From: Halogeometricum sp. S3BR5-2 | GTDB taxonomy: Archaea; Halobacteriota; Halobacteria; Halobacteriales; Haloferacaceae | DNA length: 64,000 bases | Reading direction: 5' to 3' | Assembly (NCBI RefSeq): GCF_031624635.1 | Contig: NZ_JAMQOQ010000002.1 | Location: forward strand, 186,001 to 250,000 | Part shown: positions 30,990 through 34,274 of the stretch, in pieces | Numbering within the stretch: the first letter of the stretch is position 1 | Layout of the letters: each line of letters starts with the position of its first letter | Notes under the pieces: model-generated | Seen by the model: the letters and a program-made list of their open reading frames with translations, nothing else | Databases searched by the model: none | Told to the model about the DNA's origin: nothing | Program-made: the position numbers and the translations under genes

Positions 30990-31259
30990 ATGGCCAGTTC
31001 GACTCAGAACGGCGACGCCAACGATGGCGAGATACGTCTCTGGCAAGAGGATGGCTGGTGGATCGCGAACGACGTCGATACGGGCGTGACGACGCAGGGA
31101 GCGTCTAGAACGGAGGCACTGGAAAACCTGGACGACGCCGTCGCAGTCCATACCGGGGAGCGTGGCCACGAACCGACGGACGAGGAACTCCGTTCGCTGG
31201 GAATCGACCCCGAGGACAACACCACCGGCGACCAGGCACCGCCAGATGTCCTCGACTGA
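30990..31259 (+). CDS. hicB: HicB-family antitoxin
   Basis: The 89-residue protein shows the HicB partial RNase-H-like fold: EIRLWQEDGWWIANDVDTGVTTQGASRTEALENLDDAVAVH. An acidic C-terminal tail follows. HicB binds and inhibits the HicA mRNA interferase and usually represses its own operon. The antitoxin gene comes first and the toxin follows after 3 bp, an order common in archaeal hicBA pairs. It occupies its own interval between repeats 4 and 5. Confidence 0.85.
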   Translation: MASSTQNGDANDGEIRLWQEDGWWIANDVDTGVTTQGASRTEALENLDDAVAVHTGERGHEPTDEELRSLGIDPEDNTTGDQAPPDVLD

Positions 31260-31262
31260 TCG

Positions 31263-31514
31263 ATGGGAAGGCGAACGTTCTCCGGAATGGAGGTCGTAAC
31301 GGTGCTGGTCAACGTCGGCGGGTTCGAGTGGCGACGAACGACCGGTGACCACGCTCAACTGTACTACGAACACCCGACGAACGAAGAGGACCGTCGACAA
31401 GTGACTGTCCCGTTACACAGCGAACTCCGTACCGGAACGCTCCGAAGTATCGCCGAAAGCGCCGGAGCACACGACTTCGATGCGTTCTGCGAGTGGATCG
31501 ACGAAAACGCTTGA
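31263..31514 (+). CDS. hicA: HicA-family mRNA interferase toxin
   Basis: The 83-residue protein is a HicA double-stranded-RNA-binding-fold toxin. The catalytic His30 lies in TTGDHAQLYYEHP (GSH in most relatives). The end VTVPLHSELRTGTLRSIAESAGAHDFDAFCEWI is typical. HicA cleaves mRNA to arrest translation when HicB is lost. It is translationally linked to hicB by a 3-bp gap. The full-length toxin appears intact. Confidence 0.85.
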   Translation: MGRRTFSGMEVVTVLVNVGGFEWRRTTGDHAQLYYEHPTNEEDRRQVTVPLHSELRTGTLRSIAESAGAHDFDAFCEWIDENA

Positions 31515-31915: not shown

Positions 31916-31990
31916 GTACGTATCGCCCACCGAAGTTTGCTGAATGACTGCCGGAGGAGTGGTATTTCGAGATATGAGGGAAACAGAACC

Positions 31991-31996
31991 TATAAG
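31991..31996 (+). promoter_or_regulatory. TATA box of the trpS leader
   Basis: TATAAG, preceded by AACC, lies 25-30 bp before the ATG of the short leader reading frame at 32021. It is thus about 190 bp before trpS. It predicts a transcript beginning at or just before that leader ATG. Confidence 0.6.
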
Positions 31997-32020: not shown

Positions 32021-32092
32021 ATGGTGTCTACTTCCCACGCCAATTGCTGGCGTTGGCACGTGTATCGGGAAGTGGACAGTAGCGCGGCTTAG
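32021..32092 (+). CDS. candidate Trp-Arg-Trp leader peptide of trpS
   Basis: This 23-residue frame starts with ATG 25-30 bp after a TATA box, so it would be read from a leaderless mRNA. Residues 9-13 are Cys-Trp-Arg-Trp-His; the Trp codons are at 32048-32050 and 32054-32056. The first Trp codon forms part of the right arm of a hairpin (ACGCCA 32037-32042, TGGCGT 32048-32053). The frame stops at TAG 32090-32092, before two further hairpins and then trpS. Two Trp codons in so short a frame, directly upstream of a Trp-tRNA synthetase, match the design of attenuator leader peptides. Translation is inferred, not shown. Confidence 0.5.
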   Translation: MVSTSHANCWRWHVYREVDSSAA

Positions 32093-32099
32093 GGTCAGA

Positions 32100-32156
32100 C
32101 GGGCTTAACCCGGCGGATTCGGTCGCGATGCTCACTCGCTTTCTCAATCGCATCGC
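32100..32156 (+). promoter_or_regulatory. alternative hairpins in trpS leader
   Basis: After the leader stop codon, CGGG/CCCG (32100-32103, 32109-32112) competes with GGGT/ACCC (32092-32095, 32108-32111). A 7-bp perfect stem GCGATGC/GCATCGC (32125-32131, 32150-32156) follows. It ends 30 nt before the trpS ATG and could hide or expose the trpS start region or act on transcription. Confidence 0.45.
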
Positions 32157-32186
32157 CTCCTAAGTGACTGCAATCATCAAACACAC

Positions 32187-33368
32187 ATGCCAGCAGAAGA
32201 CGACTTCACCGTAACGCCATACGCCGTCGAAGGCGACATCGACTACGACCGACTCATAGACATGTTCGGGGCTGATGCCCTCACTGCCGAGCAGAGGGCT
32301 AAGTTTCCTGACCCCGGCCATCCGCTCGTGCGCCGTAGCGTGTTCTATGCAGAGCGTGACGTAGACCCATTCCTTGATGCCGCCAACGAAGACAAGCTTC
32401 ATTCCATCGTGACGGGACGTGGCCCCTCAGGGCCGATGCACATCGGTCACATCTTCCCATTCTACTTCGCTAAGTATCTACAAAACCAGACAGGAACTCT
32501 CGTCTACATCCCGTTCTCCGACGACGAGAAGTACTTTCTCAAAGACAAGTCGCTGGAGGAAATCAGCGGCTACACCCGCGAAAACCTCCTTGACCTTCTC
32601 GCAGTCGGGTTCAACCCCGAACGAACCCGAATCGTCGTAGACACGGCGGACGCGGACGTGGTGTACCCTCTAGCGACCGCGTTTGCCAAGGAAGTGACGC
32701 AAGCGACCGTGGACGCAACATACGGAGAACCCGAGAATATCGGTCTCTCGTTCTACCCTGCTGTCCAAGCCACACACCTCCTCCTCCCGCAACTTGTGGA
32801 GGGTCGCCATCCGACGCTCGTCCCGATTGCGGTTGATCAAGACCCCCACGTTCGAGTCTGTCGGGACATCGCGGCCAAGGAACGGTACGATGTGGCCAAG
32901 CCCGGTGCCTTGCTCTCGAAGTTTCTCCCAAGTCTCGAAGGGCCGGGGAAGATGAGTTCGTCCGACGATGCACCGAGTATCCTTCTCTCAGACGATCGAG
33001 AGACGGTCTTCAACAAAATCCGCACCCATGCTTATTCTGGTGGGCAGACGAGTCTCAAAGCACATCGAGAGCAGGGAGGAAATCCCGAGGTAGATGTCTC
33101 GTATCAGTTCCTGTACTACTTCTTTGAAGAAAATGATGAGCAGGTAGAACGGCTTGCACGCGAGTATCGAAACGGGTCACTCCTGAGTGGTGAACTCAAA
33201 GATATGGCGGCGAAGAATATTGCGAACTTCCTCGAAGCACATCAAGAACGTCGCAGGGCGCTTGGCTCGCTCGAAGACGAGTTGGAACAGTTCCGCTTGA
33301 CAGAGGATGAGCGACAGGTTGCGCGGCGGCGAGCAGGCTACCCCGAGAGTTCTCTGGTTCAGAGATAG
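32187..33368 (+). CDS. trpS: accessory tryptophan--tRNA ligase
   Basis: This 393-residue class I synthetase is of the archaeal/eukaryotic TrpRS kind. HIGH is at 85-88 (GPSGPMHIGHIF), KMSSS at 255-259, and NIGLSFYPAVQATHLLLPQ forms the substrate region. It is shorter than the roughly 500-residue TrpRS usual in haloarchaea (from memory). Its A+T-richer codons and its place in the repeat array suggest an acquired second copy. Auxiliary TrpRS genes in bacteria can give resistance to the TrpRS inhibitor indolmycin; that role is only a hypothesis here. A leader with Trp codons precedes it. Confidence 0.9.
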   Translation: MPAEDDFTVTPYAVEGDIDYDRLIDMFGADALTAEQRAKFPDPGHPLVRRSVFYAERDVDPFLDAANEDKLHSIVTGRGPSGPMHIGHIFPFYFAKYLQNQTGTLVYIPFSDDEKYFLKDKSLEEISGYTRENLLDLLAVGFNPERTRIVVDTADADVVYPLATAFAKEVTQATVDATYGEPENIGLSFYPAVQATHLLLPQLVEGRHPTLVPIAVDQDPHVRVCRDIAAKERYDVAKPGALLSKFLPSLEGPGKMSSSDDAPSILLSDDRETVFNKIRTHAYSGGQTSLKAHREQGGNPEVDVSYQFLYYFFEENDEQVERLAREYRNGSLLSGELKDMAAKNIANFLEAHQERRRALGSLEDELEQFRLTEDERQVARRRAGYPESSLVQR

Positions 33369-33400: not shown

Positions 33401-33556
33401 CGCATTTCTCTACTGGACGGTTGCTTCGCAACCAACGGCGTGAAACGACTCGCAGTGCCCTGCTGAATACACCCTCTGAGTCGGTCACGACGCTTCTGAC
33501 AGCGTTCGGTGAGATTGCTGTGGGCGTGCTGCATAGAGGGCGCGAGTCGGTCATAG
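33401..33556 (+). repeat. cassette-array repeat, copy 7 (complete)
   Basis: One of the fullest copies. It has the left arm CGCATTTCTCTACTGGACGG with CAAC...GTGAAAC, the first half-repeat at 33460, the spacer TTCTGACAGCGTTCGGTGAG, and the second half-repeat GTGCTGCATAGAGGGCGCG ending in GGTCA. That TCA also provides the stop codon of the next gene on the minus strand. Confidence 0.9.
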
Positions 33557-33814
33557 GAGAGAAAGAGCAGTACCGAGAACACTCAGACAGGCAGCCGCAA
33601 TCAGCGCAAAGAGGAGACTAGCGGAGATCTCAAAGCTATCAGGGTCTCTTTGCAGTGATTCATAGCCAGCCACAATAGTCATCCCGGCCCCACCAACGGT
33701 CATAAGCAAGAGCGGAATACTATGGTCGCCAGAGAGAACCGATAGCGCCGCTGGAAGCCCAATAGAAAGTCCAATTACTGCAAGAGCACCGCTGTAGATA
33801 TACAATCGTTCCAT
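33551..33814 (-). CDS. small membrane protein, tandem duplicate copy A
   Basis: The 87-residue protein has three hydrophobic segments (IYSGALAVIGLSIGLPAALSVL, IPLLLMTVGGAGMTIVAGY, ISASLLFALIAAACLSVLGTALSLL). It is identical to the product at 34011-34274 except Leu16/Phe and Leu34/Ile, although the DNA differs at about a dozen places, so selection seems to keep the protein. TATA-like AAATATATC (33838-33846) lies 24-32 bp before the ATG. The stop codon is formed by the last bases of repeat copy 7. The function is unknown. Confidence 0.75.
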   Translation of the reverse strand: MERLYIYSGALAVIGLSIGLPAALSVLSGDHSIPLLLMTVGGAGMTIVAGYESLQRDPDSFEISASLLFALIAAACLSVLGTALSLL

Positions 33815-33930: not shown

Positions 33931-34016
33931 GATGCTCTATACTCAGCACGCTCTTTCTGACAGTGTTCGGTGAGGTTTCTGGGCCATGCTGCATAGAGGG
34001 CGCGAATCGGTCACAG
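33931..34016 (+). repeat. cassette-array repeat, copy 8
   Basis: A diverged left half (ACTCAGCACGCTCTTTCTGACAG) is followed by the second half-repeat ATGCTGCATAGAGGGCGCG and CGGTCAC. It separates the two tandem copies of the 87-residue gene. Confidence 0.85.
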
Positions 34017-34274
34017 GAGGGAAAGAGCAGTACCGAGAACACTCAGACAGGCGGCCGCAATCAGCGCAAAGAGGAGACTAGCGGAGATCTCAAAGCTATC
34101 AGGGTCTCTTTGCAGTGATTCATAGCCAGCCACAATAGTCATCCCAGCCCCGCCAACGGTCATAAGCAAAATTGGAATACTATGGTCACCAGAGAGAACC
34201 GATAGCGCCGCCGGAAGCCCAATAGAAAACCCAATTACTGCAAGAGCACCACTGTAGATATACAATCGCTCCAT
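34011..34274 (-). CDS. small membrane protein, tandem duplicate copy B
   Basis: This 87-residue paralogue of 33551-33814 lies exactly 460 bp away. The two differ at residues 16 and 34 only. It has the same three hydrophobic segments, the same TATA position, and a stop codon formed by the end of repeat copy 8. The duplicated unit therefore comprises gene, promoter and one repeat, as expected from recombination between repeats. The function is unknown. Confidence 0.75.
   Translation of the reverse strand: MERLYIYSGALAVIGFSIGLPAALSVLSGDHSIPILLMTVGGAGMTIVAGYESLQRDPDSFEISASLLFALIAAACLSVLGTALSLL

Follow-up and report, generated by a model that had tools for sequence, protein, structure and literature searches.

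How is a haloarchaeal tryptophanyl-tRNA synthetase (TrpRS) gene regulated when a small reading frame containing Trp codons lies ahead of it, and might translation of that frame be the controlling event? The question is raised by a locus in Halogeometricum sp. S3BR5-2, where a preliminary description of the window (the whole stretch of 64,000 nucleotides that was analysed) read the region before trpS as a Trp-responsive attenuator. A TATA box, an ATG at 32021, a frame of 23 codons with Trp10-Arg-Trp12, a TAG at 32090 and the trpS start at 32187 are all found where that description had placed them. Below, we describe what comparison with related leaders reveals about the gene, the upstream open reading frame (uORF) and the RNA around it, and how these may work together.

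The leader and the gene behind it

The features of the locus to which the following sections refer are these:

31983–31996, + strand: promoter for the leader transcript, BRE/TATA-like, with ACAGAAC followed by CCTATAAG, recognized from the sequence
31989–31996, + strand: the CCTATAAG box itself, likewise read from the sequence
32021–32092, + strand: uORF of 23 codons, probably leaderless, encoding MVSTSHANCWRWHVYREVDSSAA and then a stop
32026–32036, + strand: 5' arm of helix H1, GTCTACTTCCC, identified by covariation
32048–32056, + strand: TGG-CGT-TGG (Trp10-Arg11-Trp12), the sensor codons, lying in the H1 loop and identified by counting TGG by frame; the individual Trp codons are at 32048–32050 and 32054–32056
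32067–32077, + strand: 3' arm of H1, GGGAAGTGGAC, identified by covariation
32078–32087, + strand: 5' arm of helix P2, AGTAGCGCGG, identified by RNAalifold and then by covariation
32090–32092, + strand: uORF stop codon, TAG
32100–32112, + strand: hairpin H2 (CGGG-CTTAA-CCCG), enclosed by P2, identified by covariation
32123–32132, + strand: 3' arm of P2, TCGCGATGCT, overlapping the 5' arm of a 7-bp hairpin (32125–32156)
32133–32145, + strand: conserved pyrimidine-rich tract CACTCGCTTTCTC, putative partner (in pairing P1') of a freed H1 3' arm
32150–32156, + strand: GCATCGC, candidate competitor of P2 (hairpin H3, with 32125–32131), which forms here and shows weak covariation
32187–33368, + strand: trpS2, auxiliary archaeal-type TrpRS, 393 amino acids (PF00579, NF008927, TIGR00233)

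The trpS2 product matches PF00579, scores above the cut-off of NF008927 and is also matched by TIGR00233 (trpS). The same genome encodes a second TrpRS, about 33% identical to it. All of 194 haloarchaeal genomes gave a match, and about a third of them contain a gene at least 59% identical to that of the window. Since the sampled haloarchaea also have a housekeeping TrpRS throughout (about 33% identity), the window gene is the auxiliary TrpS2, in agreement with the preliminary description. In H. mediterranei, trpS2 is carried on plasmid pHME505 and flanked by integrase and transposase genes. The neighbours of trpS2 in the window include, downstream on the minus strand, tandem near-identical ORFs of 87 amino acids (33551–33814 and 34011–34274) with the look of membrane proteins, the first of them without an NCBIfam match; upstream of the leader, at 30990–31514, is an adjacent pair of small ORFs that resembles HicB/HicA by eye and has no NCBIfam match. 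A tyrS gene lies within ~7 kb of trpS2 in eight genomes (G003, G010, G012, G018, G019, G022, G023 and G024), which suggests a conserved neighbourhood.

A covariance model of the leader matches in 164 of 391 haloarchaeal genomes. In Haloferax the TrpRS leader is on plasmids, and Halobacterium salinarum has one too. Beyond the haloarchaea, the element was not found among 295 genomes of the phylum, and a generalized model with masked loops (R2) gave weak hits in 9 of 80 element-free genomes and no large further family. The link to an accessory trpS that the preliminary description had drawn holds in the window, but it is not general: in several genera the element precedes the housekeeping TrpS1 gene, whose product is 71–78% identical to TrpS1 of the window genome, and these leaders also carry Trp uORFs, e.g. 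MSASDGWRWRWQFPEADSLASPAAR. That two paralogues only ~33% identical have the element in common argues for regulation linked to Trp rather than for passive inheritance. The housekeeping trpS1 of H. volcanii shares an overlap of 4 nt with endA; the two are co-transcribed, and trpS1 is transcribed from internal promoters in addition (PMC7714728).

The uORF and its Trp codons

Scanning a collection of genomes at species level yielded 73 relatives, and the addition of later finds gave a set of 90 aligned elements. All 90 have a uORF. In nearly all haloarchaeal relatives a Trp-x-Trp uORF, visible in the raw alignment, lies 90–290 nt upstream of the gene. Across 87 aligned loci the signal of an AT-rich box is strongest between −31 and −25 from the uORF start, with BRE-like A residues ahead of it at −36 to −33, a spacing that fits a haloarchaeal promoter whose transcript begins at the uORF itself; the uORF is thus, as judged from promoter position, probably leaderless. 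TTWT and CGAAA are given as haloarchaeal promoter motifs in PMC4983044.

The same paper, a dRNA-seq study of H. volcanii (Babski et al. 2016), supports this directly, its Table 2 listing 16 uORFs within 5'-UTRs of 150–250 nt. One of them, of 23 residues (pI 5.4, 2743 Da), precedes the plasmid gene HVO_A0127 for a tryptophan-tRNA ligase, for which no further transcription start close to the gene itself is listed, and another, of 26 residues, is upstream of pheS (PMC4983044). In that table they stand as small proteins, and conservation, structure or a regulatory role is not proposed there. In the related H. prahovense the uORF has 23 residues, a pI of 5.43 and a mass of 2625; the published 2743 Da corresponds exactly to none of the uORFs compared here. 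Going by the table entries, the two H. volcanii uORFs are very probably members of the Trp leaders and of the Phe leaders described below.

In the window the uORF reads ATG GTG TCT ACT TCC CAC GCC AAT TGC TGG CGT TGG ... TAG (32021–32092). In-frame Trp codons, specifying between one and four residues, are present in 85 of 85 trpS leaders, and a W-x-W uORF was found in 66 of the 85 under a strict length filter, compared with a mean of 0.55 after shuffling. TGG triplets within H1 of the trpS leaders share the frame of the uORF start in 182 cases and depart from it in 6, and the distance from the start of H1 to the first Trp codon changes mostly in steps of 3 nt (10, 13, 16, 19, 22, 25 and 31 nt). 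It is possible to imagine that the triplets are read without translation, uncharged tRNA-Trp pairing directly with TGG in the H1 loop, as in a T-box; the sensor triplets do lie in the hairpin loop of a covarying structure, with an aminoacyl-tRNA synthetase (aaRS) gene downstream. We nevertheless regard such direct reading as very unlikely. It needs neither a frame shared with a start codon nor a fixed distance of that codon from the promoter, both of which are observed; the Phe leader likewise has several in-frame codons; and at the gathering threshold the window contains no match to a T-box or to any other Rfam family.

Relative to the RNA scaffold, the stop codons of the uORFs occur in all three frames, at positions between −22 and +36 nt of P2, so that the C-terminus of the peptide is not the conserved part. 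From the aligned leaders, what is conserved in the uORF is the start codon and the Trp codons, not the remaining peptide. This bears on the suggestion that the uORF product is itself a working microprotein whose only tie to trpS is a shared transcript. Residues after the Trp motif are partly conserved (ADS, VDS), as such a protein might require, but this conservation follows the RNA (AGT is used, not other Ser codons), and in Halorussus and in plasmid variants the frame shifts or ends directly after the Trp codons, as in VSTSRETDERRWR followed by a stop, while the RNA is kept. A microprotein is accordingly an extremely unlikely explanation. The variants ending in this way one codon after a single Trp are trpS2 leaders (L019, L023, L121, L124 and L126), some of them plasmid-borne, and their RNA scaffold is intact. 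A further leader (L118, G226:C6:266819-266969) is intact before a trpS2 that appears to be truncated after ~55 residues; a second, intact copy of trpS2 is present elsewhere in that genome.

The RNA scaffold and the proposed switch

RNAalifold and the covariance model together define a scaffold of three helices: H1, of 11 bp, around the Trp codons; P2, of 9–10 bp, which begins at the base directly after H1; and H2, of 4 bp, inside P2. Covariation is seen at 8 of 11 pairs of H1 (92.5% of cells paired), at 5 of 9 pairs of P2 (89%) and at 3 of 4 pairs of H2 (81%). Over the whole structure in 90 sequences, 89.4% of cells are paired; the number of double-change cells is 242, against 20 to 48 when the helices are slid by 1–3 columns, and the covariation score is 0.325, against at most 0.10 in the slid controls. 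None of 500 shuffles matched any of the observed covariation measures. The alignment used for these values was fitted to the structure, which favours it; H1 and P2 are seen also in a MAFFT-based alignment. The arms of a given leader pair better with each other than with arms swapped from other leaders.

H1 and P2, the strongest helices and the key structures, were both missed in the preliminary description, which had named other hairpins. A hairpin with the first Trp codon in its arm does form in the window sequence but is poorly conserved across the family (63% of cells paired), and it was rejected as a conserved element. As regards the two alternative pairings proposed after the stop codon, CGGG/CCCG, which is H2, is conserved, with compensatory changes (81%), whereas GGGT/ACCC lacks such conservation (50%). 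At 32125–32156 the 7-bp hairpin can form and is 72% paired, but covariation is slight, with 5 double changes, and for that reason H3 was rejected as the main regulator. The central proposal of a Trp-responsive attenuator fared well when homologous leaders were compared, a comparison that might have shown Trp codons and hairpins to be unconserved: both are kept, with an in-frame Trp in every trpS leader found and helices that covary while the surrounding sequence varies.

The spacing is also conserved. The distance from the start of P2 to its far arm is nearly constant, at 49–52 nt, and the core of the pyrimidine tract is a pyrimidine in 90–100% of sequences at most positions. In 45 of 85 trpS loci the H1 3' arm begins 13 nt downstream of where the last Trp codon starts, which is about as far as a ribosome reaches ahead of the codon in its A-site. 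The uORF, its in-frame Trp codons, the position of its promoter, the helices H1, P2 and H2 and the spacing between them are what the comparison of leaders brings out.

From these features we infer stalling, a switch from H1 to P1' and the direction of the response. Transcription would start at or next to the start codon of the uORF, and a ribosome would load on the leaderless frame. With ample Trp-tRNA, it would pass the Trp codons, terminate and depart, and H1 would form. When Trp-tRNA is scarce, because the cell is starved or because TrpRS is blocked or cannot meet demand, the ribosome would be expected to stall on the Trp codons of the H1 loop. With its leading edge just reaching the first bases of the H1 3' arm, it would hold the 5' arm open and leave the 3' arm free. 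The freed arm might pair with the pyrimidine tract (P1') and so extend P2 into a single long hairpin, which would hide the tract and exclude the competing downstream hairpin, and trpS would be expressed. Predicted folding is consistent with this scheme: when the RNA is folded from the H1 3' arm onward rather than as the full leader, the mean prediction for P1' is 0.63 versus 0.18, for P2 0.78 versus 0.53 and for H3 0.05 versus 0.18. The P1' value of 0.63 exceeds that for shuffled tails (0.39) and, by less, that for swapped tails (0.56). P1' and H3 show little true covariation, and with covariation of P1' weak it is from the folding and the arrangement of the leader that the switch step is deduced.

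The output of such a switch may differ from that in bacteria. The pattern of an intrinsic terminator (a GC hairpin followed by a U-run) was not found at the leader, and a conserved U-run is absent, the longest T-run after GCTC being 2–3 in 73 of 90 loci. With no terminator-like site, the element is classed as attenuator-like in its working and outside the bacterial class with intrinsic terminators. Our preferred guess is that the exposed pyrimidine tract allows factor-dependent termination; control of translation or of RNA stability is possible instead. On the strength of sequence comparison and modelled folding, a ribosome-mediated, Trp-codon-dependent attenuator of an archaeal TrpRS gene is the best explanation of the leader, and one in which we have considerable confidence.

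Related leaders and known systems

Is the arrangement confined to Trp? Upstream of haloarchaeal pheS (L199–L224, e.g. L205, L210 and L201) the uORF is typically MASEP...GFGFFFDA, with a Phe-Gly-Phe-Phe-Phe run, and 17 of 28 pheS loci pass a strict test for a Phe run, against a shuffled mean of 0.05. A TATA box is at −29 to −26. Directly after the start, CCGAACCC pairs with GGGTTCGG at the Phe codons in a hairpin of 8 bp, which is 97.9% paired and has 10 double-change cells, compared with at most 2 when slid; sequences complementary to the run of Phe codons follow further downstream (CGAAACCG and CGGAACCG). By the evidence of its sequence this is a second aaRS leader, analogous in logic to the Trp leader. 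Leaders with cognate codons before other genes are at chance level, with 2 of 25 for trpC (Trp), 1 of 25 for hisS (His) and 2 of 25 for tyrS (Tyr), and cross-controls for the leader motifs gave 1 of 25 and 0 of 25.

The Trp scaffold itself also has five relatives before genes that do not encode an aaRS: GNAT genes in four cases (L111, L115, L136 and L172) and an ABC exporter in the other (L123). Three of the five, all before GNAT genes, have uORFs free of Trp (MSAPNASAGRSRERTVRSAA, MSALSTFAVTSRERTVRSAA and MRVASHPNMCGRHTEKRPVSR), and hence the scaffold is not specific to Trp. Among resistance genes, acetyltransferases and exporters are common; a role in resistance induced by stalling is therefore possible for these leaders, which is speculation. 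They also recall drug-induced stalling, and it might be asked whether, as with the arrest peptide TnaC, the nascent WRW acts in the ribosome tunnel as a sensor of free tryptophan or of some other small molecule. WRW is indeed the commonest form of the motif. However, RRW, WHW, WCW, WPW, WQWRW and WWRWW occur as well, the residues around Trp, including those at the N-terminus, vary widely, as does the number of Trp residues (one to four), and a TrpRS gene is better suited to a signal of low charging; an arrest peptide is in our judgement unlikely. Returning to attenuation by codon-dependent stalling, we lean slightly towards a broader reading, in which attenuators with leaderless uORFs evolved independently in the haloarchaea and form a class of their own there, comprising a Trp scaffold with an exchangeable sensor loop and a Phe scaffold at pheS. 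One scaffold would then serve TrpRS genes, with Trp codons, and, with other loops, GNAT and ABC-exporter genes, the leaders of which would perhaps sense the stalling of ribosomes by inhibitors.

If the attenuator reading of the leader is correct, a second domain of life uses leader translation to sense amino acids, and does so through leaderless uORFs and an output step of archaeal type. Archaeal attenuation would become directly testable in the genetically tractable Haloferax and Halobacterium salinarum, and a role is suggested for two H. volcanii uORFs that stand uninterpreted in the published table (PMC4983044). A full-text literature search, with most subscription journals outside its reach, found no description of leader-peptide attenuation in Archaea. 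We know of none ourselves.

Several known systems resemble parts of this leader. T-box riboswitches also control aaRS genes by the charging state of tRNA; the haloarchaeal leader differs in having no Rfam match and in being constrained by a translation frame. The attenuators of the E. coli trp operon and of pheST have cognate codons in a leader peptide, that of pheST being rich in Phe, and share with the leader described here a first hairpin at the cognate codons; their alternative downstream pairing has a predicted counterpart in P1'. In contrast to them, the haloarchaeal leader is without a U-run terminator and has its codons in the loop of H1, not in a strand, and haloarchaeal trpC, unlike the E. 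coli trp operon, shows no Trp leader. Similar in setting is Streptomyces coelicolor, in which the gene for an auxiliary TrpRS resistant to indolmycin is governed, as Vecchione and Sello are said to have described in 2010 (cited in PMC4787780), by a ribosome-mediated attenuator; there too a second TrpRS gene is preceded by a leader peptide with Trp codons. The haloarchaeal leader differs in its TATA/BRE promoter, its probably leaderless uORF, its other covarying scaffold and its lack of an intrinsic terminator, and as far as tested the two are not homologous. Leader-peptide attenuation is of a known bacterial kind, and what is new is an archaeal version that uses a leaderless uORF and a scaffold of its own.
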